This document shows, piece after piece, positions 12,835 through 22,580 of a stretch of DNA of 64,000 nucleotides. Source of the DNA: Terriglobia bacterium (GTDB taxonomy: Bacteria > Acidobacteriota > Terriglobia > JAJPHL01); the NCBI GenBank assembly GCA_021325275.1, contig JAJPHL010000028.1, positions 1-64,000 on the forward strand, read 5' to 3'. Numbering within the stretch: the stretch's first letter is position 1; each line of letters opens with the position of its first letter. A program made the translations under genes and the position numbers. Under the pieces are notes generated by a model, which ran no database searches, was not told the DNA's origin, and saw nothing but the letters and a program-made list of their open reading frames with translations.

Positions 12835-13085
12835 CCGCGCCCGCACCTCTTTCGGTACGCGCCGCCGCATTGTGGTCGAGCGTGAAGAATGGCGTGAACG
12901 CGCGACTCAAAGCCGCGGCGTCGCGACAGAAGTCGCTGGTGTTGCGCGAATCGCTGAGTCTCGGTGAGCGCCGCTACGTCGCGATCGTCGAATGCGACGG
13001 CCGGCGGTATCTGGTCGGTGGCGGCCGCGATTCGGTTCAGTTGATCGCCGATTTTGATCCTCGAAGCGTGGAGGGCCGCCCGTAA
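12831..13085 (+). CDS. fliO: FliO-like flagellar biosynthesis protein without membrane helix
   Basis: 84 aa. The conserved cytoplasmic FliO core is present: LRESLSLGERRYVAIVECDG, RRYLVGGGRDSVQLIADF. FliO normally has an N-terminal membrane helix and helps assemble the FliP ring. The first 35 residues here are basic and amphipathic, with no hydrophobic run long enough to cross a membrane. It overlaps fliN by four bases and shares TAATG with fliP. The assignment is by core motif and position. Confidence 0.75.
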   Translation: MTAPAPLSVRAAALWSSVKNGVNARLKAAASRQKSLVLRESLSLGERRYVAIVECDGRRYLVGGGRDSVQLIADFDPRSVEGRP

Positions 13086-13762
13086 TGTTGTTCTTATTCG
13101 CCACCGTGCCCGCGGGCCTGCCCAGTTCCCTCACCGTGAAGGGCGACAACATCTGGACCATCGTGGTCTTGATGCTGGTGCTCACGATGTTGCCGATCGT
13201 GCTGTGCATGACGCCGTTTGTCCGCCTGCTGGTGGTGTTTCACTTCCTGCGTCAGGCGCTCGGCACGCAGAGCACGCCGTCGAACCAAACGCTGATCGGC
13301 TTAGCGTTGTTTCTCACGTTTTTCATCATGCAGCCGGCGCTGGTGACCGTTCAGCAAAACGCCGTCGAGCCGCTGCAAGCCGGCAAAATCGACGTCTGGA
13401 AAGCGCTCGACCAAGCGCAACCCCCGCTGCGCGACTTCATGTTGAAGTACGCGCGCGAAAAAGATCTGGCGCTCTTCGTGGAGGTGTCGAAGACACCGCG
13501 CCCGCGCACGCCTCAGGACTTGCCGTTGCGCGTGGTCGCACCCGCGTATCTATTGAGCGAGTTGAAGGCCGGTTTTCAAATCGGCGCCGTTCTGTTTCTT
13601 CCCTTTCTCGTGATTGACATGGTGGTCGCTTCGATCACCACATCCATGGGCATGATGCAGCTTCCGCCCGTGGTGATTTCCACTCCGCTGAAGATTCTGC
13701 TGTTCGTGCTCGTCGACGGTTGGAATTTGGTCATCGGATCGCTGCTCAAGAGTTTCCAGTAG
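13085..13762 (+). CDS. fliP: Flagellar export gate protein FliP
   Basis: 225 aa with four hydrophobic segments. Family motifs: LTMLPIVLCMTPFVRLLVVF, FHFLRQALGTQSTPSNQTLI, YLLSELKAGFQIGAVLFLPF and the SITTSMGMMQLPPVVISTPL block. FliP builds the core of the type III export gate with FliQ and FliR. The start codon overlaps the fliO stop (TAATG). The cleavable leader known in some FliP proteins is reduced to a short hydrophobic N-terminus. Confidence 0.96.
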   Translation: MLFLFATVPAGLPSSLTVKGDNIWTIVVLMLVLTMLPIVLCMTPFVRLLVVFHFLRQALGTQSTPSNQTLIGLALFLTFFIMQPALVTVQQNAVEPLQAGKIDVWKALDQAQPPLRDFMLKYAREKDLALFVEVSKTPRPRTPQDLPLRVVAPAYLLSELKAGFQIGAVLFLPFLVIDMVVASITTSMGMMQLPPVVISTPLKILLFVLVDGWNLVIGSLLKSFQ

Positions 13763-13778
13763 GTAACCAATCAACGCC

Positions 13779-14048
13779 ATGTCTACCGATATCGCCGTCG
13801 ACCTCGCCCGTCACACGTTGCAAGCAGCTCTGTGGTGCGCGGCTCCCCTGCTGATCGCCGCCACCGTCACGGGGCTCACGATCAGCATCGTGCAAACGCT
13901 CACTTCGATTCAGGATCACACCATCACCACCGTTCCACGACTCGCGGTGATGGCCATCGCCGGCATGCTGCTACTGCCGTGGATGATGCGGCGTCTGGAA
14001 GAATTCACGATCCACTTGTTTTCGGATTTCCACCCCTACATTCGATAA
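13779..14048 (+). CDS. fliQ: Flagellar export gate protein FliQ
   Basis: 89 aa with two membrane helices, the standard FliQ size. Motifs: AAPLLIAATVTGLTISIVQT, LTSIQDHTITTVPRLAVMAI. It surrounds the FliP/FliR core of the export gate. It lies 16 bases after fliP and six before fliR. Confidence 0.95.
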   Translation: MSTDIAVDLARHTLQAALWCAAPLLIAATVTGLTISIVQTLTSIQDHTITTVPRLAVMAIAGMLLLPWMMRRLEEFTIHLFSDFHPYIR

Positions 14049-14054
14049 AAGGAC

Positions 14055-14831
14055 ATGACCGCTGACCTCAATCTCGCGGGATACTTTGCACCGGCCTTGT
14101 GCGTCGGCGCGCGCGTTTCCGGATGGCTGACCTTTACGCCGTTCCTGGGGCACGCCGCGCTGCCCCCGCCGGTGAAAGCGATTCTCACTCTGGGATTGAC
14201 GATTCTTCTCTACCCTGTGGTCGGCGCGAGCGCCGGCGCGACGATCCCGCCCGGCACCTACCCGGGACCTCTCGTGATTGTCGGCGAACTCGCCGTGGGA
14301 ATGATCATGGGCCTTTGCGTACAGCTTGTGTTCGAAGGAATCGAGCTCGGCGGCACAATCATCGGCACCCAGCTTGGCTTTTCGATGGCCAACCTGATCG
14401 ATCCAATGAGTCAAGTGGAGACCACGGTGGTCGCGGTGTTCCATCAAACGATTGCGTTACTGATGTTCCTTCAGATGGACGTGCATCACACTTTAGTGCA
14501 AGCGCTGGCGCGCAGCTATCGCTATCTTCCGGCCGGGACCGCTTTCACTCTGAAAACGCCGGCGCCGCAACTCTTGCACGCCGCTGCGGGAATGTGGCTG
14601 GTGGCACTGGAGATCGCCGCGCCCGTGATGCTGGCCACGATGCTCACCGACGTGACTCTCGCGTTCGTCAGCCGGACGTCCCCGCAGCTTGTTGTGATGC
14701 TGATGGCATTTTCCATAAAAGCGCTCTTAGGATTCACCGTTCTCGGCGCGACTGTCGTGTTCTGGCCGTGGATGCTCGAGCGCCACTTTCTCTCTGCGTT
14801 CAGTTTGGCCGAACGAATGCTTCTGAAGTAG
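14055..14831 (+). CDS. fliR: Flagellar export gate protein FliR
   Basis: 258 aa and about six hydrophobic segments. Typical FliR stretches are SGWLTFTPFLGHAALPPPVK, ELAVGMIMGLCVQLVFEGIE and GTQLGFSMANLIDPMSQVET. FliR completes the FliPQR pore. The order fliP-Q-R-flhB-flhA is the canonical export-gate order. Confidence 0.95.
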   Translation: MTADLNLAGYFAPALCVGARVSGWLTFTPFLGHAALPPPVKAILTLGLTILLYPVVGASAGATIPPGTYPGPLVIVGELAVGMIMGLCVQLVFEGIELGGTIIGTQLGFSMANLIDPMSQVETTVVAVFHQTIALLMFLQMDVHHTLVQALARSYRYLPAGTAFTLKTPAPQLLHAAAGMWLVALEIAAPVMLATMLTDVTLAFVSRTSPQLVVMLMAFSIKALLGFTVLGATVVFWPWMLERHFLSAFSLAERMLLK

Positions 14832-14850
14832 CCGGGAGCGCGTAACATTA

Positions 14851-15945
14851 ATGGCCAGTGAGAATAAGAGTGAGAAAGGAACAGCACTACGCCGGCAAAA
14901 GGCGCAGGAACAAGGTCAAGTACCGCGCAGCCGCGAACTTTCGTCGGCCGTCACGCTGTTTGTCGTCACTATCGCGATCAGCGCAATCGCGGCGAGTTGG
15001 CTCGGTCCCTGGCAGCGATTCTTCAATCTTGCTCTTGAAGCCGGACAGCCCGGCACCGATCTCTCGTATCCCATCCTCGTAAAAACCGGCGCCATCGTCT
15101 CGCTCGGCGTCGCACCGATCGCGTTACTGGCCTTCGTCATTTCCACCGGAATGTTTTTGGCGCAAGGCGGACTGGTTTTTGCGCCGCAAGCGCTGGGATT
15201 CAAACCGGAGCGCTTGAATCCCGTCAACAATCTCAAGCGGATTTTCTCACTGCGGGGCATGGTGCCGCTGGTGCGCTCGCTGATTCCGGCCGGATACATT
15301 TTGTGGCTGGCGTTTTCGATGCTGCGCCGCGACTGGCCGGCGATCCTGCATGGATCGCAGCTCAACACCTCTGCGTTCCTGCATCAACTGATGGGCGTCG
15401 CCTTCGAAATCGCGTGGAAATCGTGCCTGGTGATGCTGATTTGGTCGGGCGTCGACTACGCCGTCCAGCAGCACGACTTCGAACAGTCGCTGAAGATGAG
15501 CAAGCAAGAAGTGAAAGAAGAAATGAAGGACACGCTGGGCAATCCCACGATCAAAGGACGCGTTCGCAGCATGCAGCGCCAGATGCGCCGCAAGTTCATG
15601 CTGGCCGCCGTGAAGAAAGCGACGGTGGTGATCACCAACCCCACGCACTACGCGATCGCGCTTGAATATCGCGAAGACATGGACGCGCCCACGGTGATCG
15701 CCAAGGGACGCAACCTGATCGCCGAGCAGATCAAGAAAGTCGCGCGCTGGGAGGGAATCCCGATGGTGGAGAACCGGCCGCTCGCGCAATCCCTTTACAA
15801 GACCGTGGAAGTGGGCCAGTCGATTCCGCCGCAGTTGTATACCGCGGTTGCGGAAATCCTGGCGTTCATCTATCGCGCGCAAGCCATGGCCGCGGCTGCT
15901 GCCGCCGCGCGCGCCGCCAATAATCGCAACGGAGGACGTCGTTAA
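14851..15945 (+). CDS. flhB: Flagellar export switch protein FlhB
   Basis: 364 aa. An N-terminal basic segment (EKGTALRRQKAQEQGQVPRS), four membrane helices, and a cytoplasmic domain with the autocleavage motif NPTHYAIALEY, where cleavage between N and P allows the switch from hook to filament export under FliK. MSKQEVKEEMKDTLGNPTIK precedes it. The tail is alanine-rich. TAATG joins it to flhA. Confidence 0.96.
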   Translation: MASENKSEKGTALRRQKAQEQGQVPRSRELSSAVTLFVVTIAISAIAASWLGPWQRFFNLALEAGQPGTDLSYPILVKTGAIVSLGVAPIALLAFVISTGMFLAQGGLVFAPQALGFKPERLNPVNNLKRIFSLRGMVPLVRSLIPAGYILWLAFSMLRRDWPAILHGSQLNTSAFLHQLMGVAFEIAWKSCLVMLIWSGVDYAVQQHDFEQSLKMSKQEVKEEMKDTLGNPTIKGRVRSMQRQMRRKFMLAAVKKATVVITNPTHYAIALEYREDMDAPTVIAKGRNLIAEQIKKVARWEGIPMVENRPLAQSLYKTVEVGQSIPPQLYTAVAEILAFIYRAQAMAAAAAAARAANNRNGGRR

Positions 15946-18071
15946 TGAGTGCCGCAAATCTGCCCGCAGTAAAGAATGCAGTCGCCACGCGCAAGCCGGC
16001 CAGCGGAAAAGCCGGCAGCGAGACCAAAAAGTCTTCGGGGGCGTTCGACTGGGTGGTCCCCGCCGTCGGCGTCGCCATGGTCTTCGTGATGATGGTGCCG
16101 CTGCCCGCGCTGCTGCTCGATATTCTGCTGGCGATCAGCATCATCATGGGCGTGCTCGTGCTCCTCTCCGCGTTGCACATCCTGAAACCCGTACAGTTTT
16201 CGATCTTCCCCACCCTGCTCCTGATGCTCACGCTGTTCCGCTTGTCGCTGAACATTGCGTCGAGCCGCCGGATCCTCCTGAACGGCAGTGAAGGAACCGC
16301 CGCCGCCGGAAAAGTGATTGAAGCTTTTGGACAATTTGTCGTGGGCGGCAATTACGTCGTCGGATTCGTGATTTTCCTCTTGTTGATCGCGATTCAGTTC
16401 ATCGTGATCAGCCACGGCGCGGTCCGCACGGCGGAAGTAACGGCGCGCTTCACCTTGGACGCGATGCCCGGCAAGCAGATGGCCATCGACGCCGACATGA
16501 ACGCCGGCAACATCACCGAACAACAAGCGCGCGAGCGGCGAGCGTTGGTCGCGCGCGAAGCCGAGTTCTATGGCGCGATGGACGGCGCGACGCGCTTTGG
16601 CAATCGCGACGCCGTCGCGACCATCTTGATCACCGCGATCAACATCGTCGCGGGATTCCTGATCGGCGTCTTCCAAAAGGACATGCAGTTGGTCGACGCA
16701 TTGAGAACTTACACCTCGCTGACCGTCGGCGACGGACTTGTCACGATGATCCCGGCGCTGCTGATCTCGGTAGCGGGCGGTCTGGTGGTGACGCGCGCGT
16801 CGTCGGAAGCGCCACTCGGCGAGGATTTCCAAACGCAATTGTTCTCGCGCTCCAGAGTGTTGGGAATGGCCGCCGGCGTCATGTTCCTTCTCGCCGCGAT
16901 CCCGGGACTGCCGAAGTTCGCGTTCATCGTAGTCGGCGCCGCGGTGGGATTCGTGGCCTACCGGCTAAAAGGTCGACCGAGCCCCGCCGATGCTCCCGCG
17001 GGCGGCGCCGCGAGCCCGGCAAAAACTGCCGCGCAAGAGCCGATCGAAAGCCTCATCAAGATGGACGAGATGAGCCTGGAAGTCGGAATCTCGCTCATCC
17101 CGCTCGTCGACGAGAAACAAGGCGGGCAACTTTTGAACCGCATTCGCGCGCTGCGCCGGCACCTGGCGACGCAGCTCGGTTTCATCGTGCCGTCGATCCA
17201 CATTACCGACAACTTGCGCCTCAAACCGCGCGAATACGTTGTGTCGCTGCGCGGCGTGGAGATCGCACGTTGGGAATTATTTAACGATTGCATGCTGGCG
17301 ATCAGCTCCGAGCCTGCACCGCCGCCGCTCGACGGCGTCCCGACCAAGGAACCGGCGTTCGACGTGGCCGCAAAATGGATTGCCCCTGCCAAACAAGAAC
17401 AGGCACTGGCCGCGGGATACGCGGTCGTCGATCAAACGTCGGTGATCGCGACGCATCTCTCAGAACTTATTAAGCAGAACGTCCACGAACTGCTGACGCG
17501 CCAGGAAGTGCGCCGTTTGATGGACTCCCTTAATGAAACCCAACCCAAATTGGTGGAAGAACTGGTCCCCAAATTGCTCTCTTTCGGTGAGGTGCAGAAA
17601 GTGTTACAGCAACTTCTTCGCGAGCAGGTTTCGATTCGGGATCTTACAACGATCCTTGAAACCCTCGTCGACACCGCGTCGATCAACAAGAATCCGATCG
17701 TGCTGGTGGAACAGTGCCGCCAGGCGATGGGCCGGTCTCTGGTGCGCCCGCTGTTGAGCGAAGACGGAAAACTGCGCTTGGCCACGATCGATCCGGGCTT
17801 GGAAGCCGAGATGATCCGGGCCTTCGACCCGCAAGCGTCAATGACGCAGAGCGCGGGATTACAAAGTTCTTTTTCAAGCCGCATGTTGAAAGGATTGCAG
17901 CGGCTGTTCGGTGATCAAGGCAGCGCGGCTTCGCCCGTGCTGTTGTGTGCGACTCCGGCGCGCTTCCATTTGCGTCGCCTGCTGGAGCCGATTTTGCCGC
18001 GCGTGGTGGTGCTGTCTCCCGCCGAGATTCCCGCCCCCGTGCAAGTTCAATCTTTGGGAATGGTGAGCTAA
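15945..18071 (+). CDS. flhA: Flagellar export gate protein FlhA
   Basis: 708 aa. The N-terminal membrane half (about eight helices) contains ALHILKPVQFSIFPTLLLML, LFRLSLNIASSRRILL and the FHIPEP-type loop ARFTLDAMPGKQMAIDADMN. The C-terminal cytoplasmic half forms the ring that receives chaperone-substrate complexes. About 30 basic and polar residues precede the first helix. Normally flhF and flhG follow. Here fliA comes directly, 16 bases later. Confidence 0.97.
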   Translation: MSAANLPAVKNAVATRKPASGKAGSETKKSSGAFDWVVPAVGVAMVFVMMVPLPALLLDILLAISIIMGVLVLLSALHILKPVQFSIFPTLLLMLTLFRLSLNIASSRRILLNGSEGTAAAGKVIEAFGQFVVGGNYVVGFVIFLLLIAIQFIVISHGAVRTAEVTARFTLDAMPGKQMAIDADMNAGNITEQQARERRALVAREAEFYGAMDGATRFGNRDAVATILITAINIVAGFLIGVFQKDMQLVDALRTYTSLTVGDGLVTMIPALLISVAGGLVVTRASSEAPLGEDFQTQLFSRSRVLGMAAGVMFLLAAIPGLPKFAFIVVGAAVGFVAYRLKGRPSPADAPAGGAASPAKTAAQEPIESLIKMDEMSLEVGISLIPLVDEKQGGQLLNRIRALRRHLATQLGFIVPSIHITDNLRLKPREYVVSLRGVEIARWELFNDCMLAISSEPAPPPLDGVPTKEPAFDVAAKWIAPAKQEQALAAGYAVVDQTSVIATHLSELIKQNVHELLTRQEVRRLMDSLNETQPKLVEELVPKLLSFGEVQKVLQQLLREQVSIRDLTTILETLVDTASINKNPIVLVEQCRQAMGRSLVRPLLSEDGKLRLATIDPGLEAEMIRAFDPQASMTQSAGLQSSFSSRMLKGLQRLFGDQGSAASPVLLCATPARFHLRRLLEPILPRVVVLSPAEIPAPVQVQSLGMVS

Positions 18072-18087
18072 AAGGACTAACAATCAA

Positions 18088-18876
18088 ATGAACGCTGCCA
18101 AAAAAGCCTACGAAACTGTTTGCCACATCGACGAAGAAGAGCGCAACCGGCTGCTGTTGGAACAGCTCCCGCAAGTGCGCTACATCGCGCGCCGCATTCA
18201 CGACCGCCTGCCGCAGAGTGTGTGCCTGGAAGACTTGGTTCACGCCGGCGTCCTGGGACTGATCGACGCGCTGGCGAAATACGATCCCGCCAAGAACGTG
18301 CAGTTGAAGTCGTACGCGAAGTTCCGTATTCGCGGCGCGATTCTCGATAGCCTTCGCGGCCTTGATTGGTCCCCGCGCGACCTGCGGCGCAAAGCGCGCC
18401 AGATGGAGACGGTCCACAGCCAGTTGAAGGCGACACTCGGCCGCGCAGCCAGCGAGCCCGAACTCGCCGAAGCGATGGAGATGGAACTCGACGAGTTCTA
18501 CGCTTTCCTGCGCGACTTGCGCGGACTCGATCTCGGCAGCTTGAATGCGGAAACCAACGAAGACGGCTATACCATGGAACCCGCCGCCATCGCCGCCACC
18601 GATCCCGAGGACGATCCCTTTCACCTTTGCCTGAAGGGCGAGATGAAAGAACTGCTCACCGACGCGATCTCCGACTTGCCGGAGAAAGAACGCCAGGTGC
18701 TGGCGCTCTACTACTACGAGGAACTGACGATGAAAGAAATCGGCCAGGTGCTCGGCGTCGGCGAATCGCGCGTGTCGCAGATTCATTCCGCGGCGGTGGT
18801 TCGCCTGCGCGCCGCGATCCGGCCGGCCATCGAGAGAAAGAAACCAGCCAAGAAAGCGCAGACCGTGAGCTTGTAG
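18088..18876 (+). CDS. fliA: RNA polymerase sigma factor FliA (sigma-28)
   Basis: 262 aa with sigma-70 regions 2, 3 and 4. Region 2: CLEDLVHAGVLGLIDALAKY and KSYAKFRIRGAILDSLRGLD (the FliA-type SLR-LDW motif). Region 4: LPEKERQVLALYYYEELTMK, EIGQVLGVGESRVSQIHSAA. It directs late flagellar genes. No flgM anti-sigma gene and no clear sigma-28 promoter were seen in the window. Confidence 0.94.
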   Translation: MNAAKKAYETVCHIDEEERNRLLLEQLPQVRYIARRIHDRLPQSVCLEDLVHAGVLGLIDALAKYDPAKNVQLKSYAKFRIRGAILDSLRGLDWSPRDLRRKARQMETVHSQLKATLGRAASEPELAEAMEMELDEFYAFLRDLRGLDLGSLNAETNEDGYTMEPAAIAATDPEDDPFHLCLKGEMKELLTDAISDLPEKERQVLALYYYEELTMKEIGQVLGVGESRVSQIHSAAVVRLRAAIRPAIERKKPAKKAQTVSL

Positions 18877-18878
18877 TC

Positions 18879-19871
18879 ATGGAAAAAATCCTCAACCAGG
18901 ACGAGATCGACGCGCTGTTTCTGAAGGCGCAAGGCTTGGCGGCCGCGCCGGAACCGGTGCATCGCCAGGAAGCGCCCACGCGCCACGTAACGGTCCGCGA
19001 TATTCGCCAGGCCGGTCAATTGGGCAAGGAACACGTTCGCGCGGTCAGCATGCTGCACGACAGTTTTGCGCGCAATTTGACGCATAACCTCGGCGCATAT
19101 TTGCGCGGCGTCTTCGAAGTGAACCTGGTTTCGGTGGAACAACTCTCCTACGCGGAGTTTTTGCAGCGCATTCCGGAAATCACCTACTTCGCGTCGATCA
19201 ACGTGCAACCCGCCGACGTTTTGGCCGCGATGCAAGTCGATTTGCCGCTGGCCTGCCCGATCATCGACCTGATGCTGGGCGGTCAGGGAAAATCGGAACG
19301 CGGCATTCGCGAAATCACCGAGATTGAGGAAGGAATTCTGGAAGGCGTGGTGCGCATTATCTGCCGCGACATGCAAGTTTCGTGGCTGCCGCTGTTGGAG
19401 TTGGAATTCAACTTCGACCAGCGCCAGCAGCAGGCGCAGATTCTGCAATTGATGCCGCCCAGTGAAAAAGTTTTGGCGCTCAGCTTCGAGATTCGCATGC
19501 CCGATGTGCGCGGCATGCTCAACTTCGCGTTTCCCGCGGTGATCTCGAACGCCCTGCTGCGCCGCTTGTCGAAACAGTGGTCGTATCGCCGGCGCCGCAA
19601 CATGGACCAAACGGTGTCGCAGGTGAAACAGTTGTTGATGGATTGCCCCCTGCAAGCGCAACTGGAGTTGCCGCCCACGCCGGTCCCGGTGCGCGACCTG
19701 TTGCAGTTGCAGCCCGGTTCGGTGTTGATGCTGCGCCATCGCGCACAGGCTCCCGCCACCCTGCGGGTGGCCGGAAAAGAATTGTTCCTCGCGTATCCCG
19801 TGCGCAGCGGTGCAACCCGCGGCGCGCAAGTGGAAGCGCGCATGTCGATCGCAGGCGTGACACGCAGATAA
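18879..19871 (+). CDS. fliM: Flagellar motor switch protein FliM
   Basis: 330 aa. The N-terminal CheY-binding motif is ILNQDEIDALF (residues 4-14). The CheC-like middle domain contains DLMLGGQGKSERGIREITEI, where GGxG contacts FliG. The C-terminal SpoA domain (about 255-325) has VPVRDLLQLQPGSVLMLRHR. CheY-P binding here reverses rotation. ATG 18879, two bases after the fliA stop, gives the conserved N-terminus. The longer upstream frame is a shadow of fliA. Confidence 0.94.
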   Translation: MEKILNQDEIDALFLKAQGLAAAPEPVHRQEAPTRHVTVRDIRQAGQLGKEHVRAVSMLHDSFARNLTHNLGAYLRGVFEVNLVSVEQLSYAEFLQRIPEITYFASINVQPADVLAAMQVDLPLACPIIDLMLGGQGKSERGIREITEIEEGILEGVVRIICRDMQVSWLPLLELEFNFDQRQQQAQILQLMPPSEKVLALSFEIRMPDVRGMLNFAFPAVISNALLRRLSKQWSYRRRRNMDQTVSQVKQLLMDCPLQAQLELPPTPVPVRDLLQLQPGSVLMLRHRAQAPATLRVAGKELFLAYPVRSGATRGAQVEARMSIAGVTRR

Positions 19872-19884
19872 ATGGAGATCTGGT

Positions 19885-20802
19885 ATGACTTCGCCGTTTG
19901 ACAACTACTTGGGCGCTTGGCTACAAAATATCTCGGGCGTGCTGCAACAATTGGCGACTGAAACGCTGATCGTGGAACAAAGCGGCGCCGACCCCGGGGC
20001 CATGTTCGCGAGCCTGGAAAATCGCGGCGTATGGTTGCGCTTCTCGCTCGGCAAGCGGCTGCGCGGCCAACAAGCATTCTTGGTTTCGGAATCCGACGGC
20101 GTGCGTCTGGGACGCATGTTGATGGGCGAACAAGGCGGCGAAGCCGAAACGCTCACGGCCGATTATCGCGACGCGCTTGAAGAAGTTTTTCGCCAGTTCG
20201 CCGGGCCCACCGCGGCGGCGCTGACGAAGGCCGATGGCGACACCAGCATTTCCTGGGAAGGCGTAGGATGCCCGCCGTGGAAAGCCGCGAAGCAAGTTCT
20301 CGTTCGCGTGTCGGCAAGTGCCGGCCCACCGATCATGATCGGCATGGCAATGGATGAAACGCTTGCTACCGTGCTCATCCCCAAAGCGAAGCCGGGCCCG
20401 GCGTTTTCCACCGGCGATGAAGATGAAAACGCGCCAACCGCGCCGTCCGCCGGCGATGGCGCGCGCGTCGACGCAGTGGCCCAGCGCCAACATGCCCCGC
20501 GCCTTAGCAGCACGATTGAAACGCTGCTCTCGGGCCCCGGCGAACGCAATCTCGACCTGCTGCTCGAAGTGCCGCTGCAAGTCACGCTACGCTTCGGCGA
20601 GCGCCAACTCCTGCTGCGCGACGTCTTGGACTTGAGTCCCGGCTCGGTGGTGGAATTGGATCGCCAAGTGAAAGAGCCGGCCGAATTGCTGGTGACAGGA
20701 CGAGTTGTCGCGCGCGGCGAAGTGGTGATCGTCGACGGAAACTATGGCTTGCGGATCACCGAAGTCGCGCCGCCCGCCGTGCGCGCGGAGATCTTGCAGT
20801 GA
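19885..20802 (+). CDS. FliY/FliN-type switch protein with CheC-like N-domain
   Basis: 305 aa. The C-terminal SpoA domain (about 232-302) has LLEVPLQVTLRFGERQLLLR, DVLDLSPGSVVELDRQVKEP and VVIVDGNYGLRITEV, a strong FliN match. Residues 1-160 resemble a CheC/FliY domain, but the helix TADYRDALEEVFRQFAGPTA lacks the ExxN pair needed for CheY-P phosphatase activity. A Pro/Asp-rich linker joins the halves. It is likely a second C-ring subunit next to FliM. It overlaps the following gene by four bases. Confidence 0.82.
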   Translation: MTSPFDNYLGAWLQNISGVLQQLATETLIVEQSGADPGAMFASLENRGVWLRFSLGKRLRGQQAFLVSESDGVRLGRMLMGEQGGEAETLTADYRDALEEVFRQFAGPTAAALTKADGDTSISWEGVGCPPWKAAKQVLVRVSASAGPPIMIGMAMDETLATVLIPKAKPGPAFSTGDEDENAPTAPSAGDGARVDAVAQRQHAPRLSSTIETLLSGPGERNLDLLLEVPLQVTLRFGERQLLLRDVLDLSPGSVVELDRQVKEPAELLVTGRVVARGEVVIVDGNYGLRITEVAPPAVRAEILQ

Positions 20803-21632
20803 GAGCGTTAGCCCGTTGGCGCGAAGATTTTCCGGTGTGCGAGTCCGCGGCGTGCCGCAAGCGCCCCAGTCCTTGGCGTGTATTGGCCGGCGAAAAGCCG
20901 GGCGTCCACTTGCAAGGACATTATTACTGCGGTCCCGAGTGCTTCCAAAAGGCCGCTCAAGAGATTTTTTCGCAACTTCTTCCCGCGGTGACCCGCCGTC
21001 AATCCAAGCGTCATCGAATTCCCCTGGGATTGGTCCTGTTTTCCATGGGACACATCTCGCAGCCGGATCTGCAAGGGGCTTTGCAGGCCCAAAAGGACTC
21101 GGGCGCCGGTCGAATCGGCGAACACTTGCGGCAAACCGGCGTGGTGAGCGAGCAACAAATCGCCACGGCGCTGGCGATGCAATGGTCGTGCCCTGTGTAT
21201 CCGCTGGACAGCCATCGCCGTTTTCTCGACTGCGCGCGACTGATCCCGATTCCCTTGCTCGAGACGGCGCGCATGGTTCCCGTGCATTACCTGCCGTCGA
21301 GCAATTTCTTGTACGTAGCCTTCGCGGAGTCGATCGATTACACGACGCTCTACGGCGTGGAGCAAATGCTCGATTGCCGCACCGAGCCGTGCGTGGCGAC
21401 GGAATCGTCGCTCGAACAAGCGCTGGAAGAATTGCGCCAGCAACCGCGGCCGGCGGAAGTGGTGTTCGACAGCGTCACCGACGCCTGCGAAATGGCCGCG
21501 ACCGCGCGCAACTACGCGCTGCAACTCGGCGTGACCAATGTGCGCATTGTTTGTTGCGGTGAGTATATCTGGACGCGTCTGGAGTCACCGGCGCAAACGA
21601 ACAATCTCTTGTTTCAGATTCCGCTTCGGTAG
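20799..21632 (+). CDS. Zinc-finger plus MshEN/GspE-N-like domain protein at the end of the flagellar operon
   Basis: 277 aa, no ATPase domain. Residues 14-48 hold Cys14, Cys19, Cys44 and Cys48 (last pair in YYCGPECF), like a treble-clef/TRASH-type zinc finger. Residues 76-128 contain two tandem copies of the MshEN pattern: PLGLVLFSMGHISQPDLQGA and RIGEHLRQTGVVSEQQIATA. The rest (130-225) looks like the second half of the GspE/PilB N-terminal domain. MshEN domains bind c-di-GMP in type II secretion and type IV pilus ATPases; binding here is inferred. In the first copy the conserved Arg is Pro. The four-base overlap with the upstream switch gene suggests a motility role. Confidence 0.72.
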   Translation: MRALARWREDFPVCESAACRKRPSPWRVLAGEKPGVHLQGHYYCGPECFQKAAQEIFSQLLPAVTRRQSKRHRIPLGLVLFSMGHISQPDLQGALQAQKDSGAGRIGEHLRQTGVVSEQQIATALAMQWSCPVYPLDSHRRFLDCARLIPIPLLETARMVPVHYLPSSNFLYVAFAESIDYTTLYGVEQMLDCRTEPCVATESSLEQALEELRQQPRPAEVVFDSVTDACEMAATARNYALQLGVTNVRIVCCGEYIWTRLESPAQTNNLLFQIPLR

Positions 21633-21675
21633 CACCTTCTAGTTCCGAGTTCCGAGTTCCAAGTGAGGCGTCCAG

Positions 21676-21738
21676 CCTTTTGCCTTTTGCCTTTCGCCTT
21701 TTGCCTTTTGCCTTTTGCCTTTTGATTTTTGATTTTTG
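21676..21738. repeat. Heptameric tandem repeat between convergent genes
   Basis: Seven units of CCTTTTG (one is CCTTTCG) at 21676-21724 followed by two units of ATTTTTG up to 21738. They are preceded by a tandem AGTTCCG/AGTTCCA at about 21641-21662. The block fills the 108-base convergent gap between the MshEN-like gene and the dioxygenase gene, and touches the latter's stop codon. It may also act as a bidirectional termination region. Confidence 0.85.
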
Positions 21739-21740
21739 AT

Positions 21741-22580
21741 TTACCCACGATAAAACGGCCGATCGCCCTTCACCGTCACGCGATTTCCCTTGCGCTCGTG
21801 AGGCCAATAATCCCAAATCGCCATGTGCTGCGTGCAGCGATTGTCCCACATCGCCACGTCGTTCTGGCGCCACTGGAAACGCGTTTGATACCACGGCCGC
21901 TCCGCGTGCGTACAGAGAAAATCGAGAATCGCGCGGCTTTCTTCCTCCGGCAGTCCATCGATTCGCGTGGTAAACGTGCGATTCACGAAGAGCGCCGGGC
22001 GTCCGGTCTCCGGGTGCGTACGAATCACCGGATGAATCGCCGTTGGATATTCTTTTCCCGCGTCATCGACACCGCGATCGGAGTAGCGCCCGCGATAAAT
22101 GTGCTCCGACTCATGTACGGCATTCAGGCCGGCAAGATACGTCTTCATCCGTGGCGACAAATCGTCGTACGCCGCGTACATGCTGGCAAAAAGCGTGTCG
22201 CCGCCGGCGGGTGGCAGCAGGTGAATCTGCAGGATCGATCCGAGCGGCGGCTCCTGGTCGCAGGAAACGTCGGAGTGCCAGAATTCTCCGTTGGCGATCT
22301 TGGAATCTTTGTGCGCGTGAATGACAAACACTTCCGGATGACCGTCCATGCCGGGCGCGGCCGGATGAATGTGCAAAGGACCGAAGCGCTTGCCGAAAGC
22401 GACCTGACGTTCCGGCGGCATGGGCTTTTGGTCGCGGAAAAAAATCACGGAGTGCTCGAGGAATGCCGAATGAATCTCATTCCACTGCGCGTCGCCGAGG
22501 GACTGCGACAAGTCCACGCCGCGGATTTCCGCGCCGATCACCGGCGTGACCGGTTTTACTTCAATGGTTCGGTAGTCCAC
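21741..22580 (-). CDS. TauD/TfdA-family Fe(II)/2-oxoglutarate dioxygenase
   Basis: 279 aa. The N-terminus VKPVTPVIGAEIRGVDLSQS and the metal motif in FWHSDVS (HxD) are typical, with the distal His likely in RCTQHMAIWDYWP and the oxoglutarate-binding Arg in the HERKGNRVTVKGDRP tail. Relatives hydroxylate taurine, alkyl sulfates, 2,4-D or other small acids; the substrate cannot be told from sequence. It overlaps the 3' end of the CDP-alcohol transferase gene by 20 bases. Confidence 0.88.
   Translation of the reverse strand: MDYRTIEVKPVTPVIGAEIRGVDLSQSLGDAQWNEIHSAFLEHSVIFFRDQKPMPPERQVAFGKRFGPLHIHPAAPGMDGHPEVFVIHAHKDSKIANGEFWHSDVSCDQEPPLGSILQIHLLPPAGGDTLFASMYAAYDDLSPRMKTYLAGLNAVHESEHIYRGRYSDRGVDDAGKEYPTAIHPVIRTHPETGRPALFVNRTFTTRIDGLPEEESRAILDFLCTHAERPWYQTRFQWRQNDVAMWDNRCTQHMAIWDYWPHERKGNRVTVKGDRPFYRG

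Follow-up and report, generated by a model that had tools for sequence, protein, structure and literature searches.

What is the front of a pilus-type ATPase doing at the end of a flagellar operon? The question is raised by gene X, which closes a run of flagellar genes on one strand (fliP-fliQ-fliR-flhB-flhA-fliA-fliM-fliN) in the window analyzed here (a 64,000-nt stretch of DNA, to which the positions in Table 1 refer). The GTG start of X overlaps the TGA stop of the fliN-type gene by 4 bases (GTGA at 20799-20802), which bears out the first-pass annotation on both the overlap with a FliN/FliY-type gene and the position at the end of an export-gate operon, and the gene order upstream is confirmed. 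The FliN-type protein itself carries ~220 residues N-terminal to its FliN domain that have no Pfam match and are possibly a decayed CheC/FliY-like part. Directly 3' of X, at 21641-21742, lie arrays of heptamers (AGTTCCG x3.4, GCCTTTT x7.1, and TTTTGAT x3.3), and GCCTTTT-type heptamers, in frame-translated form, adjoin other genes of the same genome (e.g., near a PilZ gene, L174).

Table 1. Genes of the flagellar run and parts of protein X, with positions in the 64,000-nt window.
Feature	Position	Strand	Description and evidence
fliP, fliQ, fliR, flhB, flhA export-gate genes	13085..18071	+	sequences; order matched in related loci
fliA-type sigma factor gene	18088..18876	+	sequence; same order matched in related loci
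fliM	18885..19871	+	PF02154 E=5.7e-40; exact start uncertain, 18885 or 18888
fliN-type switch gene	19885..20802	+	305 aa; FliMN_C at 225-294, PF01052 E=3e-22
gene X	20799..21632	+	277 aa, GTG start; Cys4 finger, MshEN, N2-like tail
Cys4 finger, residues 14-48	20838..20942	+	C-x4-C-x24-C-x3-C; Cys14, 19, 44, 48; probable Zn site
MshEN motif I, residues 75-98	21021..21092	+	P75 replaces Arg; L76, G77, L91, L95, Q98 kept
MshEN motif II, residues 105-128	21111..21182	+	R105, I106, G107, I121, L125, Q128
MshEN C-terminal subdomain (MshEN_C), residues 133-217	21195..21449	+	PF05157; hhalign to PilB
tail like N2 start of T2SSE, residues 228-265	21480..21593	+	hhalign, collinear with PilB N2

The identity of the central domain was addressed with profile, sequence, and structure comparisons. 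The NCBIfam model NF053729 (c-di-GMP_motif, MshE-related) matches X at residues 75-128 over all 53 model positions (E=3.3e-13), with a score of 49.2 bits against a curated cut-off of 38. The Pfam MshEN model (PF05157) matches residues 133-217 only, at 20.2 bits and thus below its 23.1 cut-off, and is above cut-off in relatives of X (L096, 6e-13; L100; L102, 1.2e-10; L105; L110). With X as the query, phmmer against the PDB returned T. thermophilus PilF (2.5e-11) and V. cholerae MshE (5htl, 1.5e-7), a profile search gave PilF at 4e-34 and MshE at 3.5e-15, and PilB was also among the matches of the PDB searches. Alignment by hhalign to PilB proteins from the same class reached 99% probability over residues 74-217. 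An AlphaFold model from the single sequence of X was poor (pLDDT 39 at full length, 47 for residues 70-217), and the Foldseek search made with it, in which 17 of the 17 best matches were MshEN/GSPII/PilB N-terminal domains, adds mild support only, since none reached E 0.001 and residue identities are also used. Domain-model scans of X found no RecA-like ATPase (no T2SSE or AAA match), and the protein stops after its N2-like start. The make-up that the first-pass annotation had read from the sequence, a four-Cys finger joined to two tandem MshEN motifs without an ATPase, therefore stands, and the profile and structure comparisons that it had suggested do return MshEN proteins.

Because 28 homologues were found within the window's class and 16 outside it, the X family is not a chance product, and these 44 sequences were aligned. 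The cysteines of the finger are nearly invariant (C19, C44, and C48 in 44/44, C14 in 43/44), and the finger is a probable Zn site. Naming it to a known zinc-finger family was rejected, the best matches having E-values of 0.1 or worse. So constant a finger, encoded in the same run as fliA, could instead bind nucleic acid or a transcription protein (e.g., FliA) and make X a regulator of flagellar gene expression, through which c-di-GMP would set late flagellar transcription; the fliN-flgF slot of relatives also holds other putative regulators (HDOD, CheY-like, and DUF2802-like). However, X has no known DNA-binding domain, and the best matches of its finger (methionine aminopeptidase, PHD, and Rtr1 fingers) are weak and not significant. 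We consider a role in gene expression very unlikely.

Two parts of the protein that were overlooked at first reading, the MshEN_C subdomain (residues 133-217) and the N2-like tail, bear on its origin. The former makes the MshEN domain of X complete. The last ~60 residues of X are collinear with the opening helix and strands of T2SSE N2 ('GASDIHIEP...RVRYRIDG'), and in the homologue alignment W258 of the tail is invariant and residue 260 is Arg or Lys. In hhalign the tail profile scored 21.4, and 200 column shuffles averaged 10.9 and peaked at 19.3, with 0/200 as high; taken by itself the tail has an hhalign probability of just 8%, and the likeness to N2 rests on the shuffle control and on collinearity. 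Together, the MshEN_C subdomain and the tail suggest that X descends from an assembly ATPase. Judging from sequence, X is probably the front half (MshEN plus the N2 start) of a PilB/GspE-type ATPase that has lost its motor and gained a Cys4 finger.

In the X family, the positions equivalent to the c-di-GMP contacts of MshE are selectively conserved. They average 0.54 bits of entropy across the 44 homologues, as opposed to 2.12 bits at other motif positions, and 0 of 20000 random draws were as low. G77, G107, and Q128 are invariant (44/44), Q98 and L125 are present in 43/44, and L76, L91, and L95 are Leu or another aliphatic residue in nearly all homologues. In MshE, the G11I substitution (at the equivalent of X G77) abolishes binding, and L58A (equivalent to X L125) costs about tenfold (Wang et al., 2016; PMC5013675). 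The guanine-stacking Arg that opens both motifs is present in motif II of X, where the homologues have R105 or Lys, and absent from motif I, where Pro75 aligns with MshE Arg9. This Pro occurs in 28/28 class members; outside the class the position is Arg in 7 homologues, Lys in 6, Leu in 2, and Thr in 1.

The fixation of Pro75 throughout the class could mean that X is a scaffold that no longer binds c-di-GMP. There is precedent in the GSPII-A domain of T. thermophilus PilF, a degenerate MshEN whose fold persists without c-di-GMP binding; when the native Ser was reinstated as the opening residue of motif II in a restored variant of this domain, binding was abolished (PMC12002112). Yet the selective keeping of two Gly, two Gln, and Leu contacts would be hard to explain without a ligand, and the GSPII-C domain of the same protein, whose motif II opens with Pro335, is reported to bind c-di-GMP with an affinity close to that of MshE (PMC11731258). 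A ligand-free X is, in our judgment, unlikely. The default assumption that Pro75 kills binding was rejected given this Pro-bearing domain that binds. Lys and Leu are also accepted at the first motif position, where hydrophobic residues correlate with higher affinity (PMC11731258), and thus the initial Arg is not an absolute feature. The first-pass annotation had rightly noticed that one MshEN Arg is Pro; the weak binding that it considered possible on this account need not follow. Since the contacts are conserved, and since GSPII-C binds whereas GSPII-A does not, we predict that c-di-GMP binding by X is likely, but not assured.

The occurrence of X follows that of the flagellum. The class sample comprised 121 genomes (the window plus relatives in the class), 59 with fliM and 62 without, and yielded 28 full-length homologues, window included, in 28/59 fliM genomes and 0/62 of those lacking fliM. 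In the phylum sample of 297 genomes, X was found in 39 of the 70 with fliM and in none of the 227 without; the 39 were hand-picked from the match table as ORFs that lack an ATPase and whose match reaches the Cys4 region, together with one that is cut by a contig start. The Fisher p for co-occurrence of X and fliM, of order 1e-29, overstates the significance because the genomes are related. X was not detected in 31/70 fliM genomes of the phylum sample, among them whole fliM-bearing families, and in three genomes (G011, G119, and G082) the flagellar run passes from fliN to rod genes without X. Given these missing copies, some of them clean absences from the run, X is dispensable to the flagellum. 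Viral contigs and plasmids yielded no relatives of X, and three matches from the genome-contig search (L001-L003), among them one to a pyruvate carboxylase-like ORF, were rejected as arising by chance. Genomes of family f32 (e.g., G145:C1:2293371 and G209:C1:1021448) have another MshEN ORF far from fliM, which lacks the Cys4 part and, at ~302-314 aa, is not long enough for an ATPase. Within the class, FliM scores form two groups, ~185-210 bits and ~58-160 bits, and X goes with the low-scoring group; the split suggests two flagellar lineages in the class.

A survey of the position of the gene, as the first-pass annotation had advised, shows the flagellar linkage to be conserved, with a flagellar setting in 36/37 loci outside the window. 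In the class, X directly follows fliN in 20 of the 20 loci fetched, at spacings from a 13-base overlap to a 107-base gap (some start codons having been chosen by the analyst), and in a further class locus (L111) fliN and flhA adjoin X. Outside the class, 14 of 16 loci have fliN upstream, sometimes with HDOD and DUF2802-like genes in between, and one locus cut by a contig end has a rod gene downstream of X. The one homologue away from a flagellar locus (L110, 9746-10570) comes from a genome that has fliM. Its neighbors are secF/secD/yajC-like genes, with an HD-GYP-like gene ~2.4 kb off, and its motif I has the canonical RLG. The slot between fliN and flgF in relatives (L096:8359-9732, L100:10063-11411, L142:7578-9129, and L144:8277-9164) holds genes for HDOD proteins, a DUF2802/DUF6115-like membrane protein, and a CheY-like receiver (L142); in L142 and L144, which lack X, an HDOD gene occupies it.

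This distribution also bears on the possibility that X coordinates pili with flagella. If X retains the surface by which PilB/GspE docks (MshEN plus the N2 start), it could compete with or insert into the assembly of the pilus ATPase or its cofactors and, being expressed together with flagellar genes, so restrain pili or tie them to flagellation. X does resemble PilB over MshEN and, collinearly, over the N2 start, several T2SSE ATPases are encoded in its own genome, and N-terminal domains of PilB bind partners such as PilZ (7lko). However, X tracks fliM, with no copy in the 227 fliM-less genomes, whereas T2SSE is present in 40/40 phylum genomes sampled, and no pilus gene was seen beside X. We therefore hold a pilus-directed role to be improbable.

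The genome to which the window belongs has 12 GGDEF matches, so c-di-GMP is probably made in the cell, and 11 PilZ matches. Seven of the PilZ proteins were scanned and consist of PilZ alone or PilZ with a receiver domain, with a YcgR-type N-domain in 0/7. The genome yielded no YcgR-type brake, the search for PilZN giving nothing above cut-off and that for PilZNR nothing at all, and a domain scan of X found no PilZ, PilZN, or PilZNR. PilZNR is present in 13 genomes of the phylum sample, all of them outside the window's class, and 5 of the 39 X genomes also have it.

From its domain content, the conservation of its contact residues, its co-occurrence with fliM, and its place ending the fliA-fliM-fliN run, we hypothesize, with moderate confidence and in line with the first-pass annotation, that X is a soluble protein through which c-di-GMP acts on the flagellum. 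X would bind one c-di-GMP across both MshEN motifs, and binding would reshape the protein, making or breaking a contact through its finger or tail. The partner would be another product of this operon, with the FliM/FliN C ring as the likeliest candidate and the FlhA/FlhB export gate as the alternative; the C ring is favored because X is coupled to fliN and because there is a C-ring precedent in CleD, which acts on FliM. High c-di-GMP would then change rotation, switching, or export. Against such a role stand Pro75 and the non-binding GSPII-A, the fliM genomes in which X was not detected, and the homologue away from a flagellar locus (L110); in addition, the contact with a partner is proposed from operon neighborhood only, and the 11 PilZ matches of the genome could serve motility. 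More tentatively, and with somewhat less than even confidence, we propose that X represents a phylum-wide flagellar effector derived from a motor-less pilus/T2SS ATPase and composed of a zinc finger, MshEN, and an N2 remnant, with the C ring or export gate as its target in cells that have no YcgR-type brake. The effector hypothesis directly predicts c-di-GMP binding and control of motility. If true, X would be the first MshEN-class effector dedicated to the flagellum, as far as the open-access literature searched shows, a part of the pilus machine would have been reused in the flagellum, and the coupling of c-di-GMP to swimming in bacteria without a YcgR-type brake would be explained.

X has the two 24-residue motifs that mark the MshEN/GSPII domain (PF05157, NF053729) of MshE, PilB, and T. 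thermophilus PilF, and it shares with them the Gly, Leu, and Gln contacts as well as the C-terminal subdomain. Unlike these proteins, X lacks a RecA-like ATPase, has an extra Cys4 finger, and lies in a flagellar operon, and in the window's class Pro opens motif I. The first-pass annotation had placed MshEN on secretion and pilus ATPases, but the domain is not confined there: REC, HD-GYP, CheA, CheX, cyclase, and kinase domains are also listed among its partners (Wang et al., 2016; PMC5013675). The notion that MshEN occurs only on ATPases is accordingly rejected, and its occurrence outside them, a trait that X has in common with those proteins, is not new. Among the partner domains named in that study there is no Cys4 finger, nor does the text consulted describe linkage to C-ring genes (PMC5013675). 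The Cys4-MshEN-N2 architecture with a fixed place beside fliN was not found in the open-access literature searched, and this architecture and its flagellar linkage appear to be new.

To our knowledge, the effectors by which c-di-GMP is known to act on flagellar motors carry PilZ (YcgR, MotI, and FlgZ) or CheY-like (Cle) modules. X is like the PilZ brakes YcgR and MotI in the role proposed for it, relaying c-di-GMP to the flagellar motor, but it contains no PilZ, PilZN, or PilZNR domain, has an unrelated fold, and is encoded inside the fli operon. It is likewise comparable in proposed role to Caulobacter CleD, a CheY homologue that binds c-di-GMP through an arginine-rich region and acts on FliM in the C ring (PMC7534056), but X has no REC domain. 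In place of the PilZ or CheY-like module of YcgR and Cle proteins, X would thus bring the domain of a pilus ATPase to the flagellum.
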